64,000 bases of DNA, taken from positions 872,001 to 936,000 of the forward strand of contig NC_013501.1 of assembly GCF_000024845.1 (NCBI RefSeq). The letters are read 5' to 3'. The notes beneath the pieces are model-generated. The model searched no databases, was not told where the DNA came from, and saw only the letters and a list, made by a program, of their open reading frames with translations. Shown here piece by piece: positions 17,798 to 32,260 of the stretch; position 1 is the stretch's first letter; each line of letters opens with the position of its first letter. Made by a program: the position numbers and the translations under genes. The stretch is from Rhodothermus marinus DSM 4252. GTDB taxonomy: Bacteria; Bacteroidota; Rhodothermia; Rhodothermales; Rhodothermaceae.

Positions 17798-18317
17798 GGT
17801 CGGTCTGCGAGGCTCGTGCGGACAGGGTGGTGAGCATCCGGGCGAAGGTAGAGGAAGCAGTCGCTTCGGCCGAATGCTCGTGCTGCAGTTCCTGCGGAAG
17901 CGGCATACTTTTAAGCAGCGTGATCTGCTGGGAGGTGACGCCCAGAATCAGCAGTTCGTCCCCGCAGGCGACGAGGCGGATCTGCTGTCCGGGGCCCAGC
18001 GAGAGCTGGCCAATCGGGCGTAGCAGGGCGGGACCGGGGAGCGTGCGGGTGCGGCGGTGCAGGTAGAGCGCCAGGACGGCTCCGGCGGCCAGAACAAGCA
18101 GCACCAGCACGTAGCGAGCGCTCAGATAGGGTGGCGCGGACTCCGAGCGGACAGGCAGAACCCGTGTGGAATCCGCAACGGTTGGTGGAGCAGTGGCAGG
18201 AGGCGCAGCGGGTGTGGAGGCCCACTGGAGCGCCAGCCAGAGCAAAACAAGCCCGCCGCCCAGCAGAAGCAGGCGGCGGAGCGGAAAGCCGCTGGCGGAG
18301 CGCACGCGGAACGTCAT
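17787..18317 (-). CDS. fliO: FliO-like export apparatus protein
   Basis: Membrane protein that helps assemble the FliP channel. The 176-residue product has two hydrophobic segments: residues 15-31, signal-like, then a periplasmic Pro/Ala-rich stretch, and about 65-85. A small cytoplasmic beta domain follows with the FliO hallmark LGPGQQIRLVACGDELLILGVTSQQITLL. Poor overall conservation is normal for FliO. It heads the fliOPQR-flhBA operon: a sigma-54-like promoter lies 44 bases upstream, and the leader has unusual inverted repeats. Confidence 0.88.
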   Translation of the reverse strand: MTFRVRSASGFPLRRLLLLGGGLVLLWLALQWASTPAAPPATAPPTVADSTRVLPVRSESAPPYLSARYVLVLLVLAAGAVLALYLHRRTRTLPGPALLRPIGQLSLGPGQQIRLVACGDELLILGVTSQQITLLKSMPLPQELQHEHSAEATASSTFARMLTTLSARASQTDHAS

Positions 18318-18360
18318 GGCACGGTGTGGATGGGGTGGCGTTACGCTATCGCCACCGGCC

Positions 18361-18376
18361 TGCCAACACCGTGCCA
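18361..18376 (-). promoter_or_regulatory. Sigma-54-type promoter of fliO operon
   Basis: On the minus strand this reads TGGCACGGTGTTGGCA, matching the -24/-12 consensus TGGCACG-N4-TTGC(A/T) at all positions but one, with the essential GG and GC 12 bases apart. It begins right after the fliN stop, and the predicted transcription start is about 33 bases before the fliO ATG. It would drive fliO through fliA. Confidence 0.75.
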
Positions 18377-18380
18377 GTGC

Positions 18381-19262
18381 TCAGAACAGTGCCTTTTCGC
18401 GCTGGCGGCTTCCGGTGACCAGGCTGGTAATGCGTACGCCGAACTGCTCGTCGATCACGACGGCTTCGCCCTCGGCGATGAGCCGGCCGTTGGCATAAAT
18501 TTCCAGCGGTTCGCCGACCAGTTTTTCCAGTTCGATGATGCTGCCGGTGGTCAGCCGCAGCACGTCGGCCAGCGGCAGGCGGCGTCGGCCCAGCTCGACG
18601 ACGATCTCCAGCTCGACATCGGCCAGCAGTTCCAGGTTGCCTTTGACGCCGCCGTCGCCGATGCGCTCGGGGCCCAGTTCGCCAAAGGAGGCCGGACGTA
18701 CTTCGACGGCCGCTTGCTCGGCGGCTCCTGCAGCCGTCGCCTTGGGTGCTCTGGAAGTCGGCTGTTGCGTCACGCTCGGAGGTAGCAGAATAAAGCCTTC
18801 GTGCCGCGTGTCACCGATCTGCAGCGTAAATGGAAGTTGCAACAGCGAGTCGGGCAGTTCCACCGGAGGCTGGGCGGCCCCGGAACCGGGCTGCTGGACG
18901 ACGAAGCTTACCTCGGGCAAGCGCACGCCTTCGGCGGCCAGTGCGTTGCGCAGCGTGCCGTAGCCCTGAGCGGCCACTTCGCCTAGCAGGTCATCGGTGC
19001 CCTCGTCGCCGGGGTTGAGCGCTTCGCCCAGCATGGCCTGCGACAGCAGCGGGATCCAGTCCGGCGTCAACCCGATGGCGAACGGCTCGCTGCTGGCCCA
19101 GATGAGCACGCGATCGCCGGCCAGCTCGTTCAGCTGGTCGGTCGTGATCGTGGCAGGCGTACCCAGCTCCAGGGTAAGCTCCTGGTTCAGCAGCGTCTGC
19201 AGAAACTGTTGCAGGGCCTCGCGGGTGGCCTCAAGCCGCGGAAGCGTCGGATTCGAGCTCAT
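18381..19262 (-). CDS. fliN: FliN/FliY-type flagellar switch protein with N-terminal CheC-like region
   Basis: C-ring switch component. The ATG at 19262 (MSSNPTLPRL) gives 293 residues; the frame runs further but lies inside fliM. The C-terminal SpoA domain (about 205-280: LLADVELEIVVELGRRRLPLADVLRLTTGSIIELEKLVGEPLEIYANGRL...) is classic FliN. Residues 1-130 resemble the CheC-type domain of FliY, but the phosphatase signature is broken: D91-x3-E95-x2 is followed by Ala98 instead of Asn, so CheY-P hydrolysis is doubtful. The start overlaps fliM by 32 bases. Confidence 0.9.
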   Translation of the reverse strand: MSSNPTLPRLEATREALQQFLQTLLNQELTLELGTPATITTDQLNELAGDRVLIWASSEPFAIGLTPDWIPLLSQAMLGEALNPGDEGTDDLLGEVAAQGYGTLRNALAAEGVRLPEVSFVVQQPGSGAAQPPVELPDSLLQLPFTLQIGDTRHEGFILLPPSVTQQPTSRAPKATAAGAAEQAAVEVRPASFGELGPERIGDGGVKGNLELLADVELEIVVELGRRRLPLADVLRLTTGSIIELEKLVGEPLEIYANGRLIAEGEAVVIDEQFGVRITSLVTGSRQREKALF

Positions 19263-20277
19263 CTTCCTCAAGCGGTAGTTCCGGGGGGACGACTTCCAGA
19301 ATGCGCAGGGCGCGATGTTTGCCGGAGCGGCCGGGGATCGCCCTGAATTTCTCACGTTCGCCGATGTACACCTGGACGGGTTGATTTACCCGGCGCTCCA
19401 GCACGATCACGTCGCCCACCTCGAGCGTCATCATCTCGCTGAGCTTGATCCGGGTGCGGCCCATCACGGCGCGCAGCTCCACCTCGATTTTTTCCAGTTG
19501 CTCCTCGTAGCGCTGGCGAACGGCCGGAGGCACCTCGGTCGTGGAACTGGAGCGCCACTGCTTCATGGCGCTGTGCCCCAGCATCCGCTCCAGCAGGATG
19601 TACGGATAGCAAATGTTGATAAAAGAGCGCTGCTCGTAAATCGAAACCTCGAACGTGGCCACCAGCGCCGGCTCGACACCCGGCAGGATCTGCACGAACT
19701 CGGCGTTCGATTCGAAGCCGGCTTCTTCCAGGTGGATATCGTGAATCTGTTTCCAGGCCTTTTCCAGCTCCCGAAACGCCCGCATCATGACCTTGTCCAT
19801 GATGCGGCGCTCGATCTGGGAAAGCTCCCGCGGTTTGCGCAGAAAGATGCCCGGTCCACCGAAAAGCTTCTCTACCATGAAAATGGCCAGGCGAGGGTCA
19901 AGCTCCAGGACGATTTTCTGGTGAAGTGGATGGACGTCGACCACGTAGAGCGCCGACGGTGGCGCGCTGGACATCACGAACTCCGAGTAGAGCACCTGGT
20001 CGATAGCCGACAGGCTGATGTCGACCAGCGTGCGGAGCTGCGCCGAAAGATAAACCGAAAGATCGCGGGCGAAGGCTTCGTGCACATAGTGCAGGACCCG
20101 CATCTGGTCCTGCGAAAACAGCCGAGGCCGTTTGAAGTTGTAGGGGAGAATCTTCTTCTCCGCCTCGGCCGTCATCATCGACTCGAGGGCCTCGAGGTCG
20201 TAGTCGCCCTGTTCACCGATCTGGCTACGGACCTCAAGGAGTATGTCGATTTCTTCCTGGCTAAGTGGCTTAGCCAT
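19231..20277 (-). CDS. fliM: FliM, flagellar motor switch protein
   Basis: C-ring protein that binds CheY-P and controls rotation sense. The 348-residue protein begins with the CheY-binding peptide LSQEEIDILL (residues 5-14). A middle CheC-like domain follows, with the family GGPG motif in EKLFGGPG, then a C-terminal SpoA domain (LEVGDVIVLERRVNQPVQVYIGEREKFRAIPGRSGKHRALRI). Its N-terminal peptide resembles the repeated motif in the CheZ-like tail encoded about 6 kb upstream in the locus. It lies between fliL and fliN. Confidence 0.97.
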   Translation of the reverse strand: MAKPLSQEEIDILLEVRSQIGEQGDYDLEALESMMTAEAEKKILPYNFKRPRLFSQDQMRVLHYVHEAFARDLSVYLSAQLRTLVDISLSAIDQVLYSEFVMSSAPPSALYVVDVHPLHQKIVLELDPRLAIFMVEKLFGGPGIFLRKPRELSQIERRIMDKVMMRAFRELEKAWKQIHDIHLEEAGFESNAEFVQILPGVEPALVATFEVSIYEQRSFINICYPYILLERMLGHSAMKQWRSSSTTEVPPAVRQRYEEQLEKIEVELRAVMGRTRIKLSEMMTLEVGDVIVLERRVNQPVQVYIGEREKFRAIPGRSGKHRALRILEVVPPELPLEEDELESDASAA

Positions 20278-20285
20278 GGCCCTCC

Positions 20286-20840
20286 TTACTGCAGAACGTA
20301 TTGCGTGAAGTAGACGCGGTCAATTTTTCCTTTGCGGAGGACAGCATTGACCGCGTCGCGCAGCTCCTGCTTGAGCTGGGTGCGCAGGCTGATGTCGGCC
20401 AGTTCCTCGACGGTGCGCTGGCCGAGCAGTTTGAGCACGGTGTCGCGCACGACCACTTCTTTTTCCTTCAGCTCTTCCAGCACGCCACCTTCGGCGCTTT
20501 CCAGCCCCAGATTGATCATCAGGTAGCGGGTCCCGTCGGTGCCGGCCGGATTGATAATGAAGCCCTGTAGCTCCATGAACTGGCCGTATTCGACGGGTTT
20601 CGCTTCTTCTCCCGTATCATCATCCGTGCCAGAAAACTGCTCGGCGGCCTGGGCCAGACTGGGATAGTAAACGTAAGCCAGCCAGGCACCGGCGGCAGTG
20701 GGGCCCAGCGTCAGCGCGACCAGTAACAGGCGGGCCAGCAGGCGGCGCCCCCCGCCCGAAGATTGCTCCTGTTCCTGCGCTACTTCTTCGCCGGGGGTAT
20801 CAGGCGTTTCAGGTACGGATTGCTGTGCTCGTTCTGCCAT
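20286..20840 (-). CDS. fliL: FliL, stator-associated membrane protein
   Basis: Single-pass inner-membrane protein (184 residues) that supports stator engagement. It has an acidic cytoplasmic N-terminus (residues 1-30), a membrane segment (about 32-52, RRLLARLLLVALTLGPTAAG) and a periplasmic SPFH-like FliL domain ending LRKGKIDRVYFTQYVLQ. The ATG at 20840 lies 61 bases inside the 3' end of motB in another frame, an unusually long overlap; GGGAG just upstream supports this start and no later ATG fits. Confidence 0.92.
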   Translation of the reverse strand: MAERAQQSVPETPDTPGEEVAQEQEQSSGGGRRLLARLLLVALTLGPTAAGAWLAYVYYPSLAQAAEQFSGTDDDTGEEAKPVEYGQFMELQGFIINPAGTDGTRYLMINLGLESAEGGVLEELKEKEVVVRDTVLKLLGQRTVEELADISLRTQLKQELRDAVNAVLRKGKIDRVYFTQYVLQ

Positions 20841-21541
20841 GGCTCCCAGTTGAATAGGATTTCGACGCGGCGGTTACGGGCCCGTCCTTCCGGTGTTGCG
20901 TTGGTATCTCGTGGATGGAATTCGCCATACCCTACCGCCATGTAGCGCGAAGGGGGCAGGGCATCGGTCTGCTCCAGCAGAAAACGGACGACCGCAGCGG
21001 CCCGTGCCGCCGACAGCTCCCAGTTGGAGGGGAAGCGGGCGGTGTGGATGGGACGGTTGTCCGTGTGGCCTTCGACGACGACCGATTCGATCCGGTCGTC
21101 GATAATCCCGGCCAGAATGCGCAAAATGGTACGGGACGGTTCGATGATTTCGGCCTCGCCGGACCGAAACATGATGGAATCCGTGATGATCAGGTGCAGT
21201 CCCTTGTCGGTCAGGTTCACCTGCACCTTGCCTTCCAGGTTGTGCTCCTGCAGGTACTGAATCAGTTCCTCATATTTCTCCAGCTGCTCTTTTGAAAGTC
21301 GACGTTGAACCACCTGATTTTTGATGGAAGGGATGACCGCTTCGCTCTGCAACATGCCGGTCCGCCCCTGGAAGAAGCTGAGCGCTTCTTTGAACTTTTT
21401 GACCTCAACCTCCGACATGGCCACGATCATGACGAAGAACGTCAGCAGCAGCGTGGCCATGTCGCTGAAGGTGGTCATCCAGAACGGAGCCGAAGGCTCC
21501 TCGTCTTCCTCTTCCTGAGGCTGTTGCACTTCTTCCGGCAT
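20780..21541 (-). CDS. motB: MotB, flagellar stator protein
   Basis: Peptidoglycan-anchored stator subunit. The 253-residue protein has a cytoplasmic acidic N-terminus and one membrane helix with the proton-carrying Asp (FSDMATLLLTFFVMIVAMSE, Asp27). A linker and an OmpA/MotB domain follow (VVVEGHTDNRPIHTARFPSNWELSAARAAAVVRFL). The Asp-containing helix fits a proton-driven rather than clearly sodium-driven motor, though ion type cannot be settled by eye. It follows motA by about 19 bases. Confidence 0.96.
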   Translation of the reverse strand: MPEEVQQPQEEEDEEPSAPFWMTTFSDMATLLLTFFVMIVAMSEVEVKKFKEALSFFQGRTGMLQSEAVIPSIKNQVVQRRLSKEQLEKYEELIQYLQEHNLEGKVQVNLTDKGLHLIITDSIMFRSGEAEIIEPSRTILRILAGIIDDRIESVVVEGHTDNRPIHTARFPSNWELSAARAAAVVRFLLEQTDALPPSRYMAVGYGEFHPRDTNATPEGRARNRRVEILFNWEPWQNEHSNPYLKRLIPPAKK

Positions 21542-21560
21542 GGCTCAGCGGCGGGTGTTG

Positions 21561-22349
21561 TTAGGCGGCTTTGGCCAGGTGCGACGCTTCTTCTTTGCCG
21601 CCGGCTTCCTGATTACCGGCCAGCATCTGCAGGCGTCGTTCGATCATGCTGGGGCTGTCGCCCCGGACGATGGAAAGAATGCCGACGCGGGTCATTTCGC
21701 GGGCCTTCTGCAGCAAAGCCAGCTGCACCTTGGTCTTGTTGGCGAGCGGCAGAAAAACCAGGTTGGCCAGCACGGCCCCGTAAAGCGTGGTGAGCATGGC
21801 CACGGCCATTCCGGCACCGATCTGGGTCGGGTCGGTCAGGTTCTGCATCATCTGCACCAGGCCGATCAGCGTGCCGATCATCCCGAACGACGGCGCGAAG
21901 GTGCCCGCCGAGTTCATGATCTTGGCAAAAAGCTGGATCGGGCGAAACTCTTCGGTCATGCGCACCTGCAGCATCTCGGCGATTTCCTGCTCCTCGATGC
22001 CGTCGACGGCCATTTCCAGTCCGAAGCGAATGAACGCGTCCTCCACTTCGCCAAGACGCCGATCCAGTGCCAGCAGACCTTCGCGGCGGGCCGTGCGGGA
22101 CAGGTCGGTGAACAGGTGTACGTACTGGTTCAGATCGGGCGGATTGAATTTCAGCAGGCCCTGCAGCCCGGGGACGACCACTTTGAGTTCGTCGATGGAG
22201 TAGGCAACCAGCAGGGCAGCAATGGTGCCGCCGACGACGATCAGAATGGAGGGAATGTCTACGAAGGTGAGCCAGTTGCCCCCCAGAAAGATGGCGGCAA
22301 AGATCAGCGCAAAGCCAAGTCCTAAGCCGATCGGCGTGGATTTCTCCAT
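21561..22349 (-). CDS. motA: MotA, flagellar stator protein
   Basis: Stator subunit forming the ion channel with MotB. The 262-residue protein has four membrane segments, and a cytoplasmic loop with the family block RREGLLALDRRLGEVEDAFIRFGLEMAVDG. Segments 3 and 4 contain GTFAPSFGMIGTLIGLVQMMQNL and MAVAMLTTLYGAVLANLVFLPLANK, with the conserved Pro and Thr. It starts the motA-motB-fliL-fliM-fliN group, 80 bases downstream of a sigma-28-type promoter. Confidence 0.97.
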   Translation of the reverse strand: MEKSTPIGLGLGFALIFAAIFLGGNWLTFVDIPSILIVVGGTIAALLVAYSIDELKVVVPGLQGLLKFNPPDLNQYVHLFTDLSRTARREGLLALDRRLGEVEDAFIRFGLEMAVDGIEEQEIAEMLQVRMTEEFRPIQLFAKIMNSAGTFAPSFGMIGTLIGLVQMMQNLTDPTQIGAGMAVAMLTTLYGAVLANLVFLPLANKTKVQLALLQKAREMTRVGILSIVRGDSPSMIERRLQMLAGNQEAGGKEEASHLAKAA

Positions 22350-22429
22350 GGCGACACCGTCCCGTACTTCAAGGTGGCCGGAATCTCAGGACGTACTGCG
22401 CGCTCCGAAAGAGCAGACGCCCGGGAAAA

Positions 22430-22456
22430 GTATCGGCAGTTCAGGATGCAGCTTAA
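22430..22456 (-). promoter_or_regulatory. Sigma-28-type promoter of motA operon
   Basis: On the minus strand: TTAAG, 14 bases, GCCGATAC. The -10 octamer is the same as upstream of fliS and the first flagellin. The -35 box overlaps the cheB stop codon. It would transcribe motA, motB, fliL, fliM and fliN with a leader of about 75 bases. Confidence 0.8.
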
Positions 22457-23514
22457 GGGGAGACAGGCTGGGCGACCGGCGTGCAACCCAGGCTCCGGGC
22501 CAGGAACGGACCGATCTGTTCCAGCGGCAGCACCGCATCGCTCAGCCCGGCTTCGGCCACAGCGCGGGGCATGCCATAGACCACGCAGGTGGCCTCGTCC
22601 TGGGTGATCACTTTGCCGCCGTGCTGCTTGATCAGGCGGGCGCCTTCCAATCCGTCGCGACCCATGCCGGTCATCACGACGGCCAGCACCTTGCCCCCGA
22701 AGATCTGGCAGACGCTCTGGAACATGACGTCCACCGAGGGGCGGTGCAGCGTGGCCGGTTCGACAGGCGTTCGGATCACCGGCACGTGGCCGTTGCGGCG
22801 CTCGAGTACCAGATGTCGACCGCCGGGGGCCAGAAAGACCCGCCCGGGCTCCAGCGGCATGCCTTCTTCCGCTTCGACCACCGTCAGCGGGCTGAGGCTG
22901 TTCAACCGCTCGGCGAGCGAGCGGGTAAAGTGGGGGGGCATGTGCTGGACGATCAGCACCGGCACGGGCAGGTCGGCCGGAAGCGCCGGAATGACCTGCT
23001 GGAGGGCGCGGGGGCCGCCGGTGGAAACGCCGATGGCAATAGCGCGGGCTTCGCGAAAGCGAAACGCCGGCAGCGCCTCGGTGTCCGGGGCGGCGGAGCG
23101 GCGACGCGTCAGCAGTGGACGCGTTCGGGCAATCGTCTTGATCTTTTCCAGCAGTTCGGCGCGAATGCGCGAGATTTCGATGGAGACGTACGAGTGCTGC
23201 TTGGGGATGAAATCGACGGCACCGGCTTCCAGCGCTTCGATCGTCGCCTGCGCGCCTTCCTGCGTCAGCGAGCTGACCATGATGACGGGCACAGGATGCT
23301 CGCGCATGATGCGCCGCAGCGCCGTCAGCCCGTCCATGCGCGGCATTTCGACATCGAGCGTGACGATGTCGGGCTTGAGTTCCCGCACTTTCTCGATGGC
23401 TTCCAGCCCGTCGCGGGCCGTGCCCACCACTTCGACTTCCGGGTCGCCCTCCAGCATGATGGAGAGCGCCTTGCGCATGAAAGCCGAATCGTCGACGATG
23501 AGTACGCGGATCAT
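22453..23514 (-). CDS. cheB: CheB, chemoreceptor methylesterase/deamidase
   Basis: Removes methyl groups from receptor glutamates when its receiver is phosphorylated by CheA. From the ATG at 23514 (MIRVLIVDDSAFMRKAL) the protein has 353 residues; the frame upstream of this lies in cheA and is not coding here. The receiver has TLDVEMPRMDGL. The esterase has the catalytic Ser in IGVSTGGPRAL, His in VQHMPPHFTRSLAERLN and Asp in VMTGMGRDGLEGA. It is the last gene of the chemotaxis run. Confidence 0.97.
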   Translation of the reverse strand: MIRVLIVDDSAFMRKALSIMLEGDPEVEVVGTARDGLEAIEKVRELKPDIVTLDVEMPRMDGLTALRRIMREHPVPVIMVSSLTQEGAQATIEALEAGAVDFIPKQHSYVSIEISRIRAELLEKIKTIARTRPLLTRRRSAAPDTEALPAFRFREARAIAIGVSTGGPRALQQVIPALPADLPVPVLIVQHMPPHFTRSLAERLNSLSPLTVVEAEEGMPLEPGRVFLAPGGRHLVLERRNGHVPVIRTPVEPATLHRPSVDVMFQSVCQIFGGKVLAVVMTGMGRDGLEGARLIKQHGGKVITQDEATCVVYGMPRAVAEAGLSDAVLPLEQIGPFLARSLGCTPVAQPVSP

Positions 23515-23537
23515 GGGCTTTCTCTGCAGATAGCGGT

Positions 23538-25850
23538 TCAGGCTGTGACCAGCGCGGCCTGAAAGGCTTCGCTGCCGCGAAGACGCTGCGTTTCCATGCG
23601 CACCAGCTCGCCCACATCCAGAATCATGATCACCCGACCGTCGCCGAGGATCGTGGACCCGGCCACGCCGGGCACCTTCTTGAGGTAGTTGCCCAGCGGC
23701 TTGATCACGATTTCCTTCTGGCCGATCAGATCGTCCACGATCAGGCCCAGTCGATGATGGGCGATGCCCACAATGACGGCGTAGGCCCGTTCGGGATGGT
23801 ACGTCCATCCGGGTACCTGCAGCATTTCGCCCACGCGCAGCAACGGGATGACCGTGTCGCGCAGGCGGATGACTTCGCGGCCTTTGATGGTGTAAACCGT
23901 GTCGGATTCAAGCCCGACCACTTCAATGACCGAATGCAGCGGGATGGCGAAGGCTTCTTCGCCCACGCGCACCAGCAGGCTCTGGATGATGGCCAGCGTC
24001 AGCGGCAGTTTGAGCGTGAAGCGCGTTCCCTGGCCGGGCACCGAATGGACGCTAATGGTGCCGTTCAACTTGGTGATGTTGGTCTTGACCACGTCCATGC
24101 CCACGCCCCGGCCTGATACTTTGCTGACGCGCTGCGCCGTGCTGAAGCCGGCTCGGAAAATAAGCTCCAGCGCCTCGCGGTCGCTCATCTCGGTAGCCTC
24201 TTTCTCAGTGATGAGGCCTTTTTCCAGGGCTTTGGCCTTGATTTTCTCCGGATCGATGCCGGCGCCATCGTCTTCGATTTCGATGACGATGTGGTTGCCC
24301 TCCTGCGAGGCGGCCAGCCGAATGCGGCCGGTGGGCGACTTGCCCCGGGCGCGGCGTGTTTCGGGATCCTCGATGCCGTGGTCGGCGGCATTCCGGATCA
24401 GGTGCACCAGCGGATCGCTGATCTCCTCGATGAGCGACTTGTCCAGCTCGGTCTCTTCGCCCTCGATGATCAGCTCGATCTGCTTGTTGAACTCGCGGGC
24501 CAGATCGCGCACCAGGCGCGGAAACTTGTTGAACACACGGCCGATCTGCACCATGCGCGTGTGCATGACGGCCGACTGCAGCTCGGTGGTGATGAAGTCG
24601 ATCTGGGTGGTCGTGTCGGCCAGCTCGCGGAGCAGCTCGGCGTTGTCGCCGTCGGTGCTCAGCTCGCTGAGAAGCTGGAGCAGTCGGTTGCGGCCCAGCA
24701 CCAGCTCGCCCACCAGGTCCATGAGGTTGTCGAGGCGGCGCACCTCGACGCGGATCGTCTCAGTGCTCTGATCCCGGCGGGCGGCCTGTCCGTTGCCCGA
24801 AGGCGTCGAAGCAGCCGGAGTCGATCGGGACGCATCGGCTGTCTCCGAGGAAGGCGCCGTAGCCGGTGGTGTGGTCCGGGCTTCCGGCGTGGCCGCCGCA
24901 GGCGTAGATCCGGAGCGGGCGGGCGCCGGCTTGCCCTCAGCAATTGCCTGAAGTCTTTCGATGACAGCGCCGATGGGTAGCGGCTGCAGCTTACGTGTTT
25001 CGACCTGGTGGAGGAGTTGTTTCATCAGGTCGAAGGCTTCGAAGAGGACGTCCATCATGGCGGGCTCGAAGGCGAGCGTGCCTTTGCGGAGGCGGTTGAG
25101 GACGTCCTCGAAGTGGTGGGCCAGGAGGCTGAGTTGTTCGAGGCTGAGGAAGCCGGAGGTGCCTTTGACGGTGTGGACGGCGCGGAAGATTTTGTCGACG
25201 AGCTGTCGGTCGTCGGGAGTTTTTTCGAGCTGGAGCAGGTCGTGCTCCAGGTCTTCGAAGATTTCGCGCGTCTCGACGATGAAGCTCTCGACAATCTCCC
25301 GCATCTCCTCCGAAAAGAGCGTCTCGGCCAGGGCCTCCAGAGCAGCGGCTTCCTGGGGGTCAGCAGACGCAGATTGCGCAGGAGTCGGTGCCGATGGTTC
25401 CTGAGGAGCGGTTGGGGTCGTTTTATCGGCGCTTCCGGCTGCAGCCTCCTCGTCGGCCAGCGCTTTGAGCTTACGCAGGATGTCCTCCAGCGGAATGGGC
25501 TGGAGGTTGCGCTCCTCGACCTGGTGGAGGAGTTGTTTCATCAGGTCGAAGGCTTCGAAGAGGACGTCCATCATGGCGGGCTCGAAGGCGAGCGTGCCTT
25601 TGCGGAGGCGGTTGAGGACGTCCTCGAAGTGGTGGGCCAGGAGGCTGAGTTGTTCGAGGCTGAGGAAGCCGGAGGTGCCTTTGACGGTGTGGACGGCGCG
25701 GAAGATTTTGTCGACGAGCTGTCGGTCGTCGGGAGTTTTTTCGAGCTGGAGCAGGTCGTGCTCCAGGTCTTCGAAGATTTCGCGCGTCTCGACGATGAAG
25801 CTCTCGACAATCTCCCGCATCTCCTCCGAAAAAATCGGATGCTCGCTCAT
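23538..25850 (-). CDS. cheA: CheA chemotaxis kinase with two identical Hpt domains
   Basis: Histidine kinase that reads receptor arrays and phosphorylates CheY and CheB. The 770-residue order is: Hpt1 (about 7-112, phospho-His54 in AVHTVKGTSGF); linker; Hpt2 (about 179-284, His226), which repeats Hpt1 exactly; a Pro/Ala/Thr-rich linker (about 300-370); dimerisation helix with RRLDNLMDLVGELVLGRNRL; ATPase domain (N box HLIRNAADHGIEDPETR, GVGMDVVKTNI); and a C-terminal CheW-like domain. No P2 CheY-docking domain is evident. It lies between the cheZ-like gene and cheB. Confidence 0.96.
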   Translation of the reverse strand: MSEHPIFSEEMREIVESFIVETREIFEDLEHDLLQLEKTPDDRQLVDKIFRAVHTVKGTSGFLSLEQLSLLAHHFEDVLNRLRKGTLAFEPAMMDVLFEAFDLMKQLLHQVEERNLQPIPLEDILRKLKALADEEAAAGSADKTTPTAPQEPSAPTPAQSASADPQEAAALEALAETLFSEEMREIVESFIVETREIFEDLEHDLLQLEKTPDDRQLVDKIFRAVHTVKGTSGFLSLEQLSLLAHHFEDVLNRLRKGTLAFEPAMMDVLFEAFDLMKQLLHQVETRKLQPLPIGAVIERLQAIAEGKPAPARSGSTPAAATPEARTTPPATAPSSETADASRSTPAASTPSGNGQAARRDQSTETIRVEVRRLDNLMDLVGELVLGRNRLLQLLSELSTDGDNAELLRELADTTTQIDFITTELQSAVMHTRMVQIGRVFNKFPRLVRDLAREFNKQIELIIEGEETELDKSLIEEISDPLVHLIRNAADHGIEDPETRRARGKSPTGRIRLAASQEGNHIVIEIEDDGAGIDPEKIKAKALEKGLITEKEATEMSDREALELIFRAGFSTAQRVSKVSGRGVGMDVVKTNITKLNGTISVHSVPGQGTRFTLKLPLTLAIIQSLLVRVGEEAFAIPLHSVIEVVGLESDTVYTIKGREVIRLRDTVIPLLRVGEMLQVPGWTYHPERAYAVIVGIAHHRLGLIVDDLIGQKEIVIKPLGNYLKKVPGVAGSTILGDGRVIMILDVGELVRMETQRLRGSEAFQAALVTA
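25000..25316. repeat. 317-bp perfect direct repeat, copy A (Hpt2 of cheA)
   Basis: This segment matches 25516-25832 base for base over the 317 positions I compared, at a fixed offset of 516. It encodes the second Hpt domain of CheA. Identity at synonymous sites means recent duplication or ongoing gene conversion rather than only protein-level selection. Confidence 0.9.
25516..25832. repeat. 317-bp perfect direct repeat, copy B (Hpt1 of cheA)
   Basis: Partner of the repeat at 25000-25316, encoding the first Hpt domain. The sequences diverge at once on both sides of the repeat: the linker between them and the flanks share no such identity. Confidence 0.9.
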
Positions 25851-25880
25851 GGCACCACTCTCTGGCTATTGGTGGGGACG

Positions 25881-26891
25881 TCAGCTATTCGAGTCGTTCC
25901 GCTTCGGATTGAACAGGGCATCGATTTCGTCCTGGGAGGCGGGGGTGCTTCCACCGCCGAACAGGGCGTCGATTTCGTCCTGGGAGGCGGGAGTGCTTCC
26001 GCCGCCGAACAGGGCGTCGATTTCATCCTGCGAGGTCGGGGTGCCGCTGCTGAACAGACTATCGATTTCGTCCTGCGAGGCCGGTGTGCTGTTTCCGCTA
26101 AAGAGTGCGTCGATTTCGTCCTGCGAAGCCGGACCAGTGCTTTCGCCATCTTCCGGAAGCGATGCATTGTGCTGCAGGGCGTCGACCAGCGCGTCGACCT
26201 GTTGCTGGCGGCGGCCGTCACGATCGTAGCGGGCGTGGGGATCGAACGTCCCTTCGGCAAAGAGCTGCCGGGGCAGCTCCAGGTCGTCGAGCACCTCACT
26301 GCCCAGTCGCCGGATGAGCTGGGCCATGCGATACCGCACCGACTCGATCAGGTGGTTGACGGCGGCCAGCTGCTGGGCGGTGATGTCCTGCACCTGCAGC
26401 GCCATCATGATGCGGTTCATGCGATCGCGCAGCGAGTCGACGAGCTGCTGCTGGCTTTCCAGCATGGCCTGCAGCGTGGCATAATGCTGCCGGCGCTCTT
26501 CCAGCAGCGTCTGGAGCCGCTCGTTCCAGCTCTCCGGAAGCGGCTGCCAGAGCTGCTCCTCCTGGGATTGCAGCGTCTGGAGCGCCTCGGGTGCCGCGGC
26601 CCAGGACTTTCTGAACGTATCCAGGTCATTCAGCACCACGTCGATCAGGTCGAGGATCTCCGTGGTGGCCATTTCGGTGGCCTGCGTGACGCTTTTGAGC
26701 TGCGAGCTTGCCCGCGGCATTTTGCGGGTGCTTTCGGCCAGCGAGTCGTTGACCTCCGAGAGGAGCGGGGAGATCTCCCGGAGGAAATAGACCACCTCTT
26801 CGATGAACGGAATGGCCCGTTGGCCGAGAATGAAGACGGCGCGCAGCTCGTTCAGCTTGGAAAGCAGCTCCTGTATGTGATTGGTCGTCAT
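25881..26891 (-). CDS. cheZ: CheZ-like CheY-P phosphatase with five tail repeats
   Basis: Predicted to dephosphorylate CheY-P. The 336-residue protein is long and helical at 1-215, with the CheZ-type core IMMALQVQDITAQQL (161-175). Asp169 and Gln173 fall at the D-x3-Q spacing of the E. coli CheZ catalytic D143/Q147. After a Gln-rich hinge, residues 253-328 are five tandem copies of [P/T]-x-S-Q-D-E-I-D-[A/S]-L-F joined by short Gly/Ser/Thr-Pro links. The motif resembles both the E. coli CheZ tail peptide (ASQDQVDDLL) and the FliM N-terminus here (LSQEEIDILL). It sits between cheY and cheA. Identification rests on motifs and context; the N-half is divergent. Confidence 0.82.
   Translation of the reverse strand: MTTNHIQELLSKLNELRAVFILGQRAIPFIEEVVYFLREISPLLSEVNDSLAESTRKMPRASSQLKSVTQATEMATTEILDLIDVVLNDLDTFRKSWAAAPEALQTLQSQEEQLWQPLPESWNERLQTLLEERRQHYATLQAMLESQQQLVDSLRDRMNRIMMALQVQDITAQQLAAVNHLIESVRYRMAQLIRRLGSEVLDDLELPRQLFAEGTFDPHARYDRDGRRQQQVDALVDALQHNASLPEDGESTGPASQDEIDALFSGNSTPASQDEIDSLFSSGTPTSQDEIDALFGGGSTPASQDEIDALFGGGSTPASQDEIDALFNPKRNDSNS
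25908..26135 (-). repeat. Five tandem SQDEIDALF repeats in the cheZ-like gene
   Basis: The reading frame encodes SQDEIDALF or SQDEIDSLF five times at spacings of 14 to 16 residues. The last three units are very similar at the DNA level; the first two differ more. The array ends nine residues before the stop. Confidence 0.92.
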
Positions 26892-26901
26892 TGCGGCCTC
26901 C

Positions 26902-27282
26902 TCAGGCGGTTTTCAGAATCAGGTTGATCTTTTCGCGGAGCACTTCCGGCGTAAAGGGCTTGACGATGTAGTTGTTGACGCGGGCTTGCATCGCGGCGAT
27001 CACGTCCTCCTTCATCCCGCGTGTGGTGACCATCAGGATCGGCAGGTTGCCGAAGCGGGCGTGACTGCGAATGGCTTTCGTCAGCTCCAGCCCGTTCATG
27101 TTGGGCATGTTCCAGTCGGTGATGACGAAGTCGATGGAGCCCTGCTCCAGTTTTTCCAGCGCGTCGGCCCCATCGCTGGCCTCGACCACGTCGGTGTAGC
27201 CGATCTCGCGCAGCGCGTTGCAGACGATGCGCCGCATCGTGGGGGAATCATCGACGACCAGGAACGTCATGGCTTCGCTCAT
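26902..27282 (-). CDS. cheY: CheY response regulator, next to the CheZ-like gene
   Basis: Single receiver domain of 126 residues that carries the phosphoryl signal from CheA to FliM. It has the acidic pair in VVDDSPTMRRIV, phospho-Asp in VITDWNMPNMNGLEL, the Thr switch in LMVTTRGMKED and Lys in YIVKPFTPE, all close to the classic E. coli CheY. AAAAGG precedes the ATG at 27282; Met5 at 27270 is a second possible start. It is followed 10 bases later by the cheZ-like gene, which favours this copy as the motor-binding CheY. Confidence 0.95.
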   Translation of the reverse strand: MSEAMTFLVVDDSPTMRRIVCNALREIGYTDVVEASDGADALEKLEQGSIDFVITDWNMPNMNGLELTKAIRSHARFGNLPILMVTTRGMKEDVIAAMQARVNNYIVKPFTPEVLREKINLILKTA

Positions 27283-27303
27283 GCCTTTTGATTTTTGGTC
27301 GGT

Positions 27304-27669
27304 TCAGGAGATAAACTTGGACACTTCGTACTGCAGTCGTTGTGCGTCAAAGGGTTTGGTCAGGTAGGCCTGCACGCCCAGTTGCTGGCTCTGGCTGACC
27401 AGCTCGGCATCTTCGAGCGAAGACAGCACCAGGATCGGGATGTGGGCGTACTCCGGGTCGGAGCGCAGCGCCTGCACCAGACCGATCCCGTCCATCTTGG
27501 GCATGTTCAGGTCGGTAATGACCAGATCGACCGGCGTCTGGGCAATTTTTTCCAGCGCTTCCAGGCCGTCGCAGGCCGTCAGCACCGTGAGGCCCTGGGC
27601 CCGCAGGGCAAACGTGACGAACTTGCGGGCCGTGCTGGAGTCGTCGACGACGAGAACCGTCTTAGCCAT
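27304..27669 (-). CDS. Second CheY-like response regulator
   Basis: Single receiver domain, 121 residues from the ATG at 27669, which overlaps the end of cheR by eight bases. The acidic pair (VVDDSSTARKFV), phospho-Asp (VITDLNMPKMDGIGLV), switch region (LVLSSLEDAELV) and Lys (AYLTKPFDAQ) are all present. Ser replaces the usual Thr at the switch. It could act as a phosphate sink for CheA, an adaptation regulator with the neighbouring CheR, or a second motor ligand; the sequence does not decide. Confidence 0.92.
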   Translation of the reverse strand: MAKTVLVVDDSSTARKFVTFALRAQGLTVLTACDGLEALEKIAQTPVDLVITDLNMPKMDGIGLVQALRSDPEYAHIPILVLSSLEDAELVSQSQQLGVQAYLTKPFDAQRLQYEVSKFIS

Positions 27670-28555
27670 GGCGATACGGGCTATTTTCGGAAGCTTCGGC
27701 TTCTTTTCGGTAAACAATGGCCTTGCCAAAACGCACCGGCTGGAAGGCCTGGCTGATGCCGTAAAGGGTCTCCGAGAACCCGATAAACAGGTAGCCGCCC
27801 GGTACCAGACTCCGGTAGAATGACTGGACCACGCGGCGCTTCATATTATCGTCGAAATAGATGAGAACATTAGCGCAGATGATTAAATCGAAATTCCGCA
27901 TGGCATTCATGGCGACCGCATCGGCCAGGTTCAACACCTGGAATTTCACCATCTTGCGAATTTCCTCGCGGACCTGGTAGCGATCGCCCTGCTGGACGAA
28001 ATAGCGTTGAAGATATTCAGGCGGCACGTTGCGGATGGCATAGTCGCCGTAGATCCCCTGCTGGGCCTGCTGGAGCACGTTCGTGTTGATGTCGGTGCCG
28101 ATGATCTCGAACCGGGCATAGGGATGGCGCGGCAGAATGCGATCCCGCAGAAAAATGGCCAGCGTGTAGGGCTCTTCGCCGCTGGAGCAGCCCGCACTCC
28201 AGATGCGGATCTGGTGTTTGGTGCGCAGCCACTCAGGCAGAATGTGTTCTTCCAGCACTTCCAGATGGCCGGGCGCGCGAAAGAAATAGGTTTCGTTGAT
28301 GGTGATGGCGTTGACCAGATGACGGAATTCCTCCCGCGCCTGGCCGTTCTGCAGAGCATGCAGGTAGGCCCGGCCGTTCGGCAGGCGGAGTTCATTCAGG
28401 CGGCGTCCGACCCGGCTTTCCAGCAGATAGCGCTTGTTGTCCTGAAAGTAGATGCCGGTCTTTTCGTAGATCAGCTGGCGCAACTGCTGGAATTCTGCGT
28501 CCGAAAGGACGCCCTGTTGTTGCGGGGTCAGGGGTAGGCGTGCCAGCAGACTCAT
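27662..28555 (-). CDS. cheR: CheR, chemoreceptor methyltransferase
   Basis: SAM-dependent methylation of receptor glutamates. The 297-residue protein has the helical N-domain (FQQLRQLIYEKTGIYFQDNKRYLLESRVGRRL) and the ITINETYFFRAPGHLEVLEEHILPE block. The SAM site IRIWSAGCSSGEEPYTLAIFL follows, with FDLIICANVLIYFD and GGYLFIGFSETL later. No C-terminal pentapeptide-receptor-binding extension or TPR is fused. The start lies 14 bases after the HEAT-repeat gene. Confidence 0.97.
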   Translation of the reverse strand: MSLLARLPLTPQQQGVLSDAEFQQLRQLIYEKTGIYFQDNKRYLLESRVGRRLNELRLPNGRAYLHALQNGQAREEFRHLVNAITINETYFFRAPGHLEVLEEHILPEWLRTKHQIRIWSAGCSSGEEPYTLAIFLRDRILPRHPYARFEIIGTDINTNVLQQAQQGIYGDYAIRNVPPEYLQRYFVQQGDRYQVREEIRKMVKFQVLNLADAVAMNAMRNFDLIICANVLIYFDDNMKRRVVQSFYRSLVPGGYLFIGFSETLYGISQAFQPVRFGKAIVYRKEAEASENSPYRHG

Positions 28556-28569
28556 GGCGGTGCGGGGTT

Positions 28570-29835
28570 TCAGGACTGGTAGGCAGAACTACGGCGGGCC
28601 GTGCAGAGCGCGTCGTCGGCATAGTGGCGCACGGCCGGATCGGGGTCGTGCAATCCCTGCTGAACCAGAGCAAAGAAGGCGGGGTGCTGCAGTTGCAGGC
28701 CCAGCGTGATGGCCGCCATTTTGGTTTCGGCATCCAGGCTTTCGAAGTGGGCCTGAAGGAACTGGGCCGCCTGGGGCAATTGAAAGTCGTCCAGGCGGCC
28801 GTGGGTCAGGAGTGCGATGGCAAAGCCGGCGGCCGCGTCGAGCGACATCCGGCCCGTTTCGGCGCAGCGGGCCACACAGGCGAACGCCCTGGGATGGGTG
28901 GAAATGGCCTCGAACAGGGCCAGGTCCAGCTCGTCGTGCTGCCCCGCATGCTCCAGCATGGCCTCGATGGTCGCCTCATCGAGCATGTGGCGCAGGCCAC
29001 GCACGGCCGCTTTTTTGAAGCTCAGATCAGGCTCCTGAAGCATTTCCAGCAGGTAGGGACGAAGCCGTTCCGGAAGCGGCGGTACCGGCCCGGTGGCCGA
29101 CTCGTAGGCCTCGATCAGGTCGTAGAGCACTAAGGGACGGGCTTCGGGTGTGGCCTGCTCGACCTGGCGCAGCAGCAGATGCAGCACTTCAGGAATCGGA
29201 TACCGCGCGAGTGCTTCAGCGGCGGCGTACTGGACGACCGGGTCCGGATCGTTCAGGGCCGCCTCGACGAGCTGCAGCCCGCGTGCATCCCGGAACGTCC
29301 CCAGCGCCGCCAGGATGTGCGGCCGCTCGGCCGGGTAAAACCGATAGCGTTCGCGCAGCACCGGGGCGTACTCGGTAGCCCCCAGCGCGGCCAGCGCATC
29401 GATGGCGGCCAGGCGGACGTTCGTGTCCGGATCGTCCAGCCGGGCCGCGATGCGATCGACTACGTCGTAGGCCGGGAGCTGCGCCAGGACGTCGATGGCA
29501 AACTTGCGCGCGTCCGCATCGTCGATGTCCACGTAGGGCAGGAGCGCCTGAATCGAAGGCGCGCCGATGCGGACGAGCACCTCGCCGGCCAGGTTGCGCA
29601 CAGGCAACTCGGGATGCTGGATGAGCGGCACCACCGCCCGGGCCGCTTCCTCGGTGCCGATGGCCACCAGATGCTCGGCTGCGGCTTCGCGAATGCCCGG
29701 ATCGGGATCCTGCAGGCAGTGGGCCGCGACCGGAATCGTTTCGGCGGGCGTGTGGGTGGCCAGCAACTCGTTCAGCGCATCCAGACGAACAGACGGATCC
29801 GGATGCTGCAGGCCTTCAGGCAGCATCATCGACAT
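28570..29835 (-). CDS. HEAT-repeat protein inside the chemotaxis operon
   Basis: A 421-residue soluble protein built of repeated helical pairs of about 30 residues (for example DPDPGIREAAAEHLVAIG, DPDTNVRLAAIDALAALG, DPDPVVQYAAAEALARYP, DPDPAVRHYADDAL). These are typical PBS/HEAT repeats. The middle (about 230-390) is less regular. No signal peptide, membrane segment or catalytic motif is seen, so it is probably a protein-binding scaffold. It is placed between cheW and cheR with 14-24 base gaps, so it should be co-expressed with them. I know no standard chemotaxis protein of this kind. Confidence 0.88.
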   Translation of the reverse strand: MSMMLPEGLQHPDPSVRLDALNELLATHTPAETIPVAAHCLQDPDPGIREAAAEHLVAIGTEEAARAVVPLIQHPELPVRNLAGEVLVRIGAPSIQALLPYVDIDDADARKFAIDVLAQLPAYDVVDRIAARLDDPDTNVRLAAIDALAALGATEYAPVLRERYRFYPAERPHILAALGTFRDARGLQLVEAALNDPDPVVQYAAAEALARYPIPEVLHLLLRQVEQATPEARPLVLYDLIEAYESATGPVPPLPERLRPYLLEMLQEPDLSFKKAAVRGLRHMLDEATIEAMLEHAGQHDELDLALFEAISTHPRAFACVARCAETGRMSLDAAAGFAIALLTHGRLDDFQLPQAAQFLQAHFESLDAETKMAAITLGLQLQHPAFFALVQQGLHDPDPAVRHYADDALCTARRSSAYQS

Positions 29836-29859
29836 GGCTTTTCACCGATGGTTGTGCGA

Positions 29860-30381
29860 TCAGGAAGCTTCGGCTTCGGCGGTTTCCTGGAGCGGCTGGA
29901 GACGGTGCTTTTCTTCGTCGGTCAGGATGCGCTCCAGGTCCAGCAGAATGAGCAGCCGATCGTCGAGCTTGGCCACGCCCGTGATGTAGTGGGCATCGAT
30001 GCCGATGGCCAGCTCCGGCGGCGGTTCGATCACGCCGGCATCGACGCGCAGCACCTCGCGCACGGCGTCGACCATGAAGCCGACGATCTTGTCGCCCAGT
30101 TCCACCACGATGATGCGCGAGTTCTTGTCGCGCTCGCGCCGCGGCAGGTTGAACCGCTTGCGCAGGTCCACGACGGGCACGATGCGCCCGCGCAGGTTGA
30201 TGACGCCCTCGACGAACGCGGGCGCATTCGGCACGCGCGTAATATCGACGGGCCGGATGATCTCCTGCACGTTCAGAATGTCGACGCCAAACTCTTCGTT
30301 TTCGATCAGAAAACTGACCAGTTGGAGAATCTGCGAACGAGACGTCTGCTGCTGCATGGCCAGCGGTGGGGTTGAATCCAA
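29860..30381 (-). CDS. cheW: CheW, chemotaxis coupling protein
   Basis: Adaptor that links receptors to CheA. The 173-residue protein has the CheW fold blocks LVSFLIENEEFGVDILNVQEII, GVINLRGRIVPVVDLRKRF and VGFMVDAVREVLRVD. A Glu/Ala-rich tail follows. I keep the TTG at 30381 because GGAAGG stands eight bases upstream; the ATG at 30357 (MQQQTSRSQ) is a fair alternative because the TTG leaves a leader of only about 15 bases behind the sigma-28 promoter. First gene of the chemotaxis operon. Confidence 0.95.
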   Translation of the reverse strand: MDSTPPLAMQQQTSRSQILQLVSFLIENEEFGVDILNVQEIIRPVDITRVPNAPAFVEGVINLRGRIVPVVDLRKRFNLPRRERDKNSRIIVVELGDKIVGFMVDAVREVLRVDAGVIEPPPELAIGIDAHYITGVAKLDDRLLILLDLERILTDEEKHRLQPLQETAEAEAS

Positions 30382-30402
30382 CAGGAATACCTTCCGGCTA
30401 CC

Positions 30403-30429
30403 ATATCGGCCAGAAAGGGCGCTTCTTTA
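30403..30429 (-). promoter_or_regulatory. Sigma-28-type promoter of the chemotaxis operon
   Basis: Minus strand: TAAAG, 14 bases, GCCGATAT. This is the best match in the window to the enterobacterial FliA consensus (TAAAGTTT-N11-GCCGATAA), with exact spacing. It would transcribe cheW through cheB. Confidence 0.85.
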
Positions 30430-30458
30430 GAGAAATATGAGGTCTTTACGTAAAAAAG

Positions 30459-30485
30459 CGTACCCCGGCCACAGGCCGGGGTACG
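30459..30485 (-). terminator. Rho-independent terminator of flgE
   Basis: CGTACCCCGGCC and GGCCGGGGTACG form a perfect 12-bp stem with a three-base loop, followed on the minus strand by a run of six T after one C. It lies 23 bases past the flgE stop and insulates flgE from the cheW promoter. Confidence 0.93.
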
Positions 30486-30507
30486 CCGGGAGGTTCACCG
30501 CAAACGC

Positions 30508-31755
30508 TTATCGTTTGAGCTGGACGAGTTCCTGGAGCATTTCGTCGGAAGTCGTGATGATGCGGGCCGAGGCCTGGTAGCCGCGCTGCGTGACGATCAT
30601 GTCGGTAAATTCCGTGGCCAGGTCCACGTTGCTCATCTCGAGCGTACCGGCCACGATCACCGTGCGGTTGAGTTCGACGCCGGCGCGTCCCAGGGCCAGA
30701 TCGCCCGAGGAGCTGGTCAGGCTCCAGAGGTTGTCGCCGACCTGTTGCAGGCCGTTGACGTTGTTAACGGACCCGAGGGCCAGTTGATAGATTTTTTGCT
30801 GGTAGCCGTTGGAGAAGTTGAGTTCGACGATGCCTTCCTGGTTGATGCTGAAGCCGATGAGGGAGCCGGGGGGTTGGCCGTCCTGGTCGCGGACGGTGGC
30901 GGTGGTGGAGCCGGCGTACTGGGTGAGGGCATCGTCGGCCCCCGCCAGGTTCAGCGTGAAGCTTTCCAGAGTGCCATCATTATCGATGTCCCAGTCGAAC
31001 GTCTGGAGCGCTTCGGTGGGATCCAGGTTGCCCTGCGTGTCGAAGGTGATCAGGTTATCGCCACTGGTAATCGTAACACCCAGGGGATTCCCGTCTTCGT
31101 CCAGCAGATTCCATTGCCATTCGTTGGGATTGGAGGTTCTTGTAAATTCAATGATGATGGTTTTGGCTTTCCCCTGCGGATCATACACGACGGTAGAGAC
31201 CGTTACGGTTTCGCCGGCTGCCAATTCCGCATTGAGGTTGCCGCGGACGTAGATGTTTTCGGTTTGTTTGGGGGGAGCGGTGGCGCTGAAGGGAACGCGC
31301 ACGTCTTCGAGCGCAGCCGACTGCAACTCACCGTTTTCATCGAAAGCCCAGCCCTGCACCTGCAAACCGCTGTTGGTCACCAGTTCACCAAAGCGGTTGA
31401 TCGTGAAATTGCCGGCGCGCGTCAGGTAGATGCGGTCGCCGCCACGGACGACGAAGAACCCGTCGCCGTTGATGCCCAGGTCGGTGGCCACGCCGGTGTT
31501 TTCGAGGGCGCCCTGGGCGAAGTTGACGTCGATCGAACCCACCGAGACGCCCAGCCCGACGTAGGAGGGATTGATGCCACGGCCGCCGGCGGTGCGGCCC
31601 ACACCCAGCAGCGTCTGGCCGAGCAGTTCGTTGAAGGCGGCGCGGCCGCGTTTGAAGGCGGTGGTGTTGACGTTGGCGATGTTGTTGGAGATGACGTCCA
31701 TGCGGACCTGATGGCTTTTGAGTCCGGAGACGCCGGTGCGCAGAGAGCGAATCAT
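30508..31755 (-). CDS. flgE: FlgE, flagellar hook protein
   Basis: Main subunit of the hook. The 415-residue protein opens with the rod/hook signature SGLKSHQVRMDVISNNIANVNTTAFKRGRAAFNELL. It has the FlgE/F/G middle block INGDGFFVVRGGDRIYLTRAGNFTIN and ends with the C-terminal helix signature SNVDLATEFTDMIVTQRGYQASARII...DEMLQELVQLKR. Length is that of a small hook protein with a modest D2 insertion. It has its own sigma-54-like promoter and terminator, so it appears to be a single-gene unit. Confidence 0.95.
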   Translation of the reverse strand: MIRSLRTGVSGLKSHQVRMDVISNNIANVNTTAFKRGRAAFNELLGQTLLGVGRTAGGRGINPSYVGLGVSVGSIDVNFAQGALENTGVATDLGINGDGFFVVRGGDRIYLTRAGNFTINRFGELVTNSGLQVQGWAFDENGELQSAALEDVRVPFSATAPPKQTENIYVRGNLNAELAAGETVTVSTVVYDPQGKAKTIIIEFTRTSNPNEWQWNLLDEDGNPLGVTITSGDNLITFDTQGNLDPTEALQTFDWDIDNDGTLESFTLNLAGADDALTQYAGSTTATVRDQDGQPPGSLIGFSINQEGIVELNFSNGYQQKIYQLALGSVNNVNGLQQVGDNLWSLTSSSGDLALGRAGVELNRTVIVAGTLEMSNVDLATEFTDMIVTQRGYQASARIITTSDEMLQELVQLKR

Positions 31756-31824
31756 GGCCGTTACTTCGGGTTTGGTTTTACAGGATGCTCAGGATGAGCG
31801 CTGCAGCGTCGGTCGGTCGGCTGC

Positions 31825-31840
31825 AGCAACCGGCATCCCA
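31825..31840 (-). promoter_or_regulatory. Sigma-54-type promoter of flgE
   Basis: Minus strand TGGGATGCCGGTTGCT: GG and GC are correctly 12 bases apart and TTGCT is perfect at -12; two of twelve consensus positions differ. The predicted start is about 58 bases before the flgE ATG. Confidence 0.65.
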
Positions 31841-31870
31841 GAAGGGGCCTGCCGGTGGTTCGTTCAGTCG

Positions 31871-32260
31871 TTACAGGATGTAGGCACTGTCAATCTGGGT
31901 GAAAATCCGTTGCTGCATTTCCTGGCGGTCGAGGGCCGTCACCACGGTGCGATTCGTGACGCTGACGATGAAGGCTGCTTCGGGATGCAGCACCAGCGCT
32001 TCGCGTGCGCCTTTAGCCGACAGCTCCTGCACGGCCTCGGTGAGCTGTCGGGCCAGCAGGTCGTCGAAGGCGATGCCGCGCTGGGCGATGCGCTGGCGCG
32101 CGTGGGCCGAGAGACGCACGCCTTCATCGGGCGCCTGCACCTGGCGCAGCACTTCGGCAAACGAAGATCGCGGCGGATCGTGCGTGCGCGGCGCCTGCGT
32201 GGGCGACGTCGACGTGCCCGGCACAGGCTGCACGCGCGCGGCCAGTTCCTGTACCTTCAT
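31871..32260 (-). CDS. TIGR02530-like flagellar operon protein
   Basis: A 129-residue soluble protein with the block VRLSAHARQRIAQRGIAFDDLLARQLTEAVQELSAKGAREALVLHPEAAFIVSVTNRTVVTALD, which resembles a small family found between flgD and flgE in many flagellar operons. Its role is unknown to me; hook assembly or export is suggested by position. It lies 28 bases after flgD and before the flgE promoter, the last gene of that operon. Confidence 0.8.
   Translation of the reverse strand: MKVQELAARVQPVPGTSTSPTQAPRTHDPPRSSFAEVLRQVQAPDEGVRLSAHARQRIAQRGIAFDDLLARQLTEAVQELSAKGAREALVLHPEAAFIVSVTNRTVVTALDRQEMQQRIFTQIDSAYIL

Follow-up and report, generated by a model that had tools for sequence, protein, structure and literature searches.

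Chemotaxis kinases with more than one phosphotransfer (Hpt, P1) domain are already known, and in one survey they account for 18% of CheAs, with around 93% of these multi-Hpt proteins being of the ACF/Tfp type and more than 90% carrying a receiver domain (PMC10782961). The same survey gives nearly 52% of CheAs as being without P2; according to it, phosphotransfer is slower once P2 has been lost, and an overexpressed Hpt can correct this (PMC10782961). As far as they are described there, the multi-Hpt CheAs, including class F4 with its three Hpts, resemble the CheA of Rhodothermus marinus in having several N-terminal Hpts and in their frequent lack of P2, whereas the R. marinus protein is unlike them in belonging to a flagellar gene cluster, in having no receiver and in carrying two matched Hpts (PMC10782961). 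Extra Hpt domains inside CheA are also described for Rhodobacter sphaeroides CheA3, but there the second and third are deviant and lack the His, whereas both R. marinus Hpts are intact (PMC10782961); the decayed state of CheA3 instead resembles that of G036, a relative within the order Rhodothermales. In terms of sequence change, the locus is like the cases of long-lasting concerted evolution described for prokaryotic paralogs, in which copies are closer within a species than to their orthologs and the pattern recurs in lineages, although the cases treated in that source are paralogous genes and ours is one domain inside one gene (PMC6053082). The words 'identical', 'Rhodothermus', 'gene conversion', 'concerted' and 'recombination' each occur zero times in the main text of the CheA survey (PMC10782961), and we found no report of a twin-Hpt CheA under intragenic concerted evolution in the open-licence literature searched. 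As far as that literature shows, it is this combination, rather than the presence of several Hpts, that is new here.

The stretch of R. marinus DNA that we analysed (the window) is 64 kb long. Within its cheA gene (Table 1), nucleotides 19-335 recur exactly and in frame, with 317/317 bases identical and the copies lying 516 bp, or 172 codons, apart from start to start with a gap of 199 bp; the exact match and the 516-bp spacing are as the first-pass annotation of this DNA had described. It had further claimed that the phospho-His motif is kept in both copies, and HTVKGT is indeed found at residues 54 and 226; we take the His of this motif to be the phosphorylation site, given the role of the motif in the Hpt family. 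Its view that the linker between the copies is unrelated needs to be qualified for the ~24 codons past each copy, which are still alignable and in which 9/24 residues are the same in R. marinus. Because these codons still align, the duplication probably covered more than 317 bp at the outset. Only one other place in the window has exact repeats of 60 bp or more, a pair of tandem flagellin-like genes (49746-50567 and 50705-51529, named by eye) which share long exact stretches at an offset of 962, and which have possibly been homogenised by conversion too.

Table 1. Positions, in the window, of the cheA repeat and of the neighbouring che cluster genes.
Feature	Position	Strand	Remarks
cheA	23538..25850	minus	770 aa; Hpt1 - linker - Hpt2 - linker - P3 (H-kinase_dim) - P4 (HATPase_c) - P5 (CheW)
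First (N-terminal) repeat copy, Hpt1	25516..25832	minus	residues 7-111, predicted four-helix Hpt bundle; exact match
Second repeat copy, Hpt2	25000..25316	minus	residues 179-283; 317/317 identical
His54 codon, predicted phosphorylation site of Hpt1 (HTVKGT)	25689..25691	minus	
His226 codon, predicted phosphorylation site of Hpt2	25173..25175	minus	
Linker 1 and tail of Hpt1, 199 bp between repeat copies	25317..25515	minus	
Tail (fifth) helix region of Hpt1, outside homogenised tract	25446..25515	minus	most like first tail of G001
Tail helix region of Hpt2	24930..24999	minus	36/72 bases differ from Hpt1 tail
cheZ	25881..26891	minus	Pfam PF04344
CheZ tail, five SQDEIDxLF motifs	25911..26126	minus	similar to N-terminus of FliM-like ORF (LSQEEIDILL)
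cheY-a, single receiver domain	26902..27282	minus	
cheY-b, single receiver domain	27304..27669	minus	
HEAT-repeat protein gene, co-occurs with CheY-b	28570..29835	minus	

Pfam returned two Hpt domains followed by H-kinase_dim, HATPase_c and CheW for the cheA product, all above the cut-off, and it therefore has the P1 (Hpt), P3, P4 and P5 domains of a CheA histidine kinase. The receiver that most multi-Hpt CheAs possess, a Tfp/ACF trait, is absent, with no Response_reg match in Pfam at E values up to 10. A P2/CheY-binding domain also gave no match up to E 10 with HMMER, which drops weak matches and which, according to the CheA survey, misses many P2 domains (PMC10782961). In a structure model of the protein built from nine sequences (mean pLDDT 61, with values of 67-91 in blocks over the Hpt helices), four helices of Hpt1 (residues 12-38, 43-62, 66-84 and 91-112) and four of Hpt2 (184-210, 215-234, 238-256 and 263-285) fall within the repeat, and a fifth helix of each falls outside it (122-138 and 294-304). 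The linkers (139-164 and 305-372) appear unstructured in what is a modest model overall. As modelled, homogenisation has covered the four helices of the Hpt bundle, and the fifth helix is copy-specific.

Comparison with relatives had been proposed at the first pass, and the two congeners in which the place of the repeat is spanned, G001 (CheA 82% identical to that of R. marinus, G000) and G002 (97%), both have two Hpt copies. The genomes came from a whole-genome search with the CheA protein that matched 7/7 genomes of the genus, six of them with the ortholog and G005 with only a second CheA that is 43% identical. In the remaining congeners the place is interrupted, by a 700-N gap in G003 and by contig breaks in G004 and G006. 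More widely, the search matched 22/114 genomes in the order (E 1e-60) and 23/244 in the class (E 1e-120); G037 (41% identical) and a second place in G035 (38%) were left out as other CheAs. The contigs of G024 also break at the repeat and those of G035 break in the last Hpt, the overlapping contigs of the latter being 96% alike, and a genome contig scan gave three loci, two of them pieces of one MAG. A second CheA with an HTLKGN Hpt, 43-45% identical, is present in the four congeners G005, G006, G003 and G004 (L010, L011, L012 and L013), and no match of this type was listed for G000, G001 or G002 at E 0.001.

Within the 315-nt core, the two copies of a genome differ at 0 positions in G000, 1 in G001, 6 in G002, 0 in G025 and 15 in G041. 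Between genomes the core is far less alike, with 47-48 differences between G000 and G001, including 33/105 third positions (0/105 differ between the copies of G000, and likewise within G001), and 61 differences between G000 and G025. The flank shows the reverse pattern. Over the adjacent 72 nt the copies differ at 36 positions in G000 and 34 in G001, whereas the first copies of these two species differ at 24; of the 24 tail residues, 17 are the same between the two first copies, compared with 9 between the copies of G000 and 11 between those of G001. The second tails of G000 and G001 are 36/72 apart, as distant as paralogs, and the orthology of the flank rests on the first tail. In G000, G001, G025 and G041, then, the copies are closer within a genome than to their orthologs, silent sites included. 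Between G000 and G001 the flanks keep their orthologous relations, the first tails being 24/72 apart as against 34-36 between copies. G002 is less clear, given that its own copies are 6 apart and its first copy is only 4 from the first copy of G000. Since the core is identical or nearly identical within these species and divergent between them, and the first tails are orthologous, the sequences indicate that the duplication predates the G000/G001 split and that only the core has been homogenised since, in each lineage separately. The first-pass annotation had offered 'recent duplication or gene conversion', and it is the second of these that the data favour, the first being at odds with two copies that predate the split from G001 and appear to have been homogenised lineage by lineage. 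The pattern is one of intragenic concerted evolution, for which gene conversion would be the simplest process. Our preferred reading, to which we give a probability of roughly 0.75, is that of an old duplication followed by lineage-wise conversion, with the second Hpt providing an extra, interchangeable donor function; both the conversion process and the function are what we infer from these comparisons.

Some indication of timing and direction may be taken from individual bases. Two silent bases (gene nt 66 and 117) are common to both R. marinus copies and found in 0/6 other readable copies, and 35 bases are common to both G001 copies and absent from other copies. At nt 327, the two R. marinus copies share a His109 codon with the first copy of G002, and the codon is for Gln in the second copies of G002, G004, G006 and G003 and in both copies of G001. 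Because His109 is shared with the first copy of G002 and Gln is found in the second copies, copy 1 would most simply have been written over copy 2 in R. marinus after its split from G002.

In the model that we favour, an old in-frame duplication gave the CheA of this flagellar/chemotaxis cluster two Hpt (P1) domains, after which the 317-bp four-helix part has probably been overwritten from copy to copy, separately in different lineages. The overwriting would occur as the two direct repeats, lying close together, recombine by homology, which amounts to intragenic gene conversion. It would leave copies that match fully or almost fully inside each species but not across species, with the fifth helix and the linker evolving copy by copy. 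A single P4 kinase domain would phosphorylate both bundles, and both would serve the same phosphate acceptors, so the second Hpt may represent an extra interchangeable donor, raising the supply in a CheA without a detected CheY-docking P2 and feeding two CheYs. Extra phospho-donor supply to the two CheYs would be the likeliest role: given that an overexpressed Hpt can offset the loss of P2, doubling the donor with an identical copy would be expected to act likewise in a CheA that has no P2.

The strongest challenge to the functional part of this reading is that nothing has been selected at all, close direct repeats homogenising mechanically and the second Hpt being merely tolerated. Pooled over five genomes, the differences between copies comprise 17.5 nonsynonymous and 4.5 synonymous changes (1228 and 347 sites, respectively), G041 supplying 15 of these 22 changes. 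The ratio is near the unconstrained one (Fisher p 0.80 versus the site ratio) and so would suit such a view, as would the lineages that are without one copy or have a wrecked one. The differences between G000 and G001 are 17.5 nonsynonymous and 30.5 synonymous (p 0.0007). These figures also fit a transient redundancy in one copy which is later cleaned by conversion, although this is only a lead. Against mere tolerance, 3/3 Rhodothermus CheAs that span the place keep two Hpts, with two more implied by contig breaks (see below), and both His are kept in 8/9 fully read two-Hpt CheAs, G036 being the exception. At such a short distance, direct repeats should frequently collapse into a single copy by deletion, and here such a deletion would be in frame. 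We consider the absence of a selected function a serious possibility, though less likely than not.

Across the order, the state of the two copies varies considerably. Out of 309 core bases, 309 are identical between copies in G000, G001 and G025, 303 in G002 and 294 in G041, and the diverged pairs have 214 (G077), 209 (G075), 181 (G076, of lineage g37 as are the former two) and 89 (G036). G025 and G041, with a matched and a nearly matched pair, belong to two other families of the order, and elsewhere the copies are diverged or decayed, or there is just one; the exact repeat of G025 is 384 bp long (gene nt 13-396) and also covers most of the fifth helix. In the first copy of G036 Phe replaces the His, and G035 has three Hpt-like stretches, the first with its His retained in an altered motif, the second with Lys in that position and the third intact. 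A single Hpt is found in G052, G061, G062, G065, G066 and G070, as well as in the class outgroups G242 and G243. In a tree of the Hpt domains the copies pair by genome in G001 (96/95), G041 (100/99) and G025 (identical). The four G000 and G002 copies form one clade (88/86), inside which the second copies pair (83/85) and the copies do not group by genome, the segment used running past the repeat edge, and in g37 (G075-G077) the first and second copies stay apart. Given that the g37 copies share 181-214/309 bases, that those of G002 and G041 are non-identical and that there are single-Hpt relatives, identity of the copies is not essential across the order.

In a P3-P5 tree, the branches before or beside Rhodothermus are those of G041, with two Hpts, of family f8, with additional degenerate ones, and of family f4, where G025 has two. 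Family f12 includes genera of the two-Hpt and of the single-Hpt kind, and there is one Hpt in each of the outgroups G242 and G243. The simplest account would be one duplication near the base of the order, followed by homogenisation, divergence, decay or loss. The deep branches have moderate support (88/57, 85/85 and 93/94), which leaves room for separate duplications at the family level, or for loss and re-duplication through unequal recombination from two copies to one and back to two. G025 is the best candidate for this, as its repeat edges (nt 13-396) differ from those in Rhodothermus (19-335) and the orthology of its linker with that of Rhodothermus is only putative; the existence of single-Hpt lineages points the same way. 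However, lineages with two Hpts or a degenerate copy lie on both sides of Rhodothermus in the P3-P5 tree, and inside the genus such an explanation does not apply. We consider separate origins unlikely, then, without thinking them negligible.

A recent tandem duplication in R. marinus, with the copies being the same because the second is young, would account for the 0/315 differences and for the sharp repeat edge, but G001 and G002 have two copies at nearly the same edges, and the first tails of G000 and G001 are orthologs that have moved far from the second tail, so we regard this as very improbable. Exact repeats are a classic assembly problem and draft relatives do break at the cheA repeat, which makes an artefact worth weighing. 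The R. marinus genome, however, at 3,386,737 bp in 2 contigs, has the size published for the finished genome of R. marinus R-10T, which is described as having been built from Sanger 8-kb and fosmid libraries and 454 data with finishing reads for repetitive regions (PMC3035238). Moreover, two copies are present in G002, G025 and G041, whose genomes each form one contig. The breaks in the MAG G004, whose contig names contain 'k151', are informative too: contigs end at gene nt 169 and resume at nt 186 (Hpt coordinates). Assemblers conventionally overlap contigs by k, and if k = 151 here, these would be the break points produced by an exact repeat from nt 19 to 336. The G006 contigs break at nt 162 and nt 207. 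On the basis of these breaks G004 and G006 probably have two Hpts, although they may have a single one; linker 1 was searched for in the assemblies of G004, G006 and G024 and not found, which would be explained by its lying on a small contig that was left unbinned. The artefact that had been raised as a concern at the first pass thus has next to nothing in its favour, and the repeat stands on the match in genome size and the same layout in relatives. A codon or RNA constraint that keeps the copies the same without exchange, for which we found no support, is just as implausible, since 33/105 third positions differ between G000 and G001 as opposed to 0/105 between the copies of each. The relatives' copies, the tails, the third positions and the finished genome led us to reject these three explanations.

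The locus is a clean example from nature of what seems to be gene conversion confined to a single domain of a signalling kinase, the homogenised catalytic bundle giving way sharply to a fifth helix that is specific to each copy. With two Hpt domains of identical sequence, it also offers a simple test of whether extra donor copies alone alter flux when no docking domain is detected in the CheA. Genes of this kind can interrupt draft assemblies, and kinases with twin domains may thus be under-counted.

The genes around cheA look flagellar, with FlgE- and FliM-like ORFs (named by eye) in the window, the latter with an LSQEEIDILL N-terminus (from 20277 downwards). The annotation had listed two CheY genes, which we recover as cheY-a and cheY-b, and had proposed that the whole phosphorelay is tuned for multivalency. 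Part of that proposal is borne out by the genomes in which both Hpts are live, as these also have a second CheY and the HEAT-repeat protein: CheY-b and HEAT are present in 10/10 genomes with two live Hpts (G000, G001, G002, G004, G006, G025, G041, G075, G076 and G077) and in 1/9 with one (G052, the others being G036, G061, G062, G065, G066, G070, G242 and G243). This association is a lead, the genomes being related and G004 and G006 counted as two-Hpt from their contig breaks; G003, G005, G024, G035 and G037 were left out, G035 because the status of its Hpts (changed motif, Lys, intact) is ambiguous. The part of the proposal that concerns the CheZ tail fares less well. Its SQDEIDxLF-type motifs, which presumably bind CheY, number 5, 5, 4, 4 and 2 in G000, G002, G001, G004 and G006 and 4, 2, 3, 2 and 3 in G025, G041, G075, G076 and G077 (read by eye), compared with 1 in G052 and G036 and 2 in G061, G065 and G066. 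Since they run from 2 to 5 while the Hpts stay at two, motif number is not tightly coupled to Hpt number. A bolder proposal would be that the matched pair has been selected as such, as two interchangeable donor cassettes that conversion keeps matched and that form a module together with CheY-b and the HEAT-repeat protein. The in-frame direct repeat would then allow a switch between one, two and three Hpts. If this were true, such switching would amount to heritable gain control of a chemotaxis kinase, but we think it distinctly improbable.

In 13/13 relatives searched whole, CheY-b (a match of at least 58% identity) and the HEAT gene (E 1e-15) are either both present (G025, G041, G052 and G076) or both absent, and the two proteins may be a functional pair. 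The flagellar and chemotaxis genes at 18000-32000 of the window lie in a strain described as non-motile, the account of R. marinus R-10T stating that flagella were not observed (PMC3035238), a point that weighs against our preferred reading. In Roseithermus sacchariphilus RA, from the same order, cheA and cheZ transcripts are reported to be up around twofold on xylan (PMC7409140).
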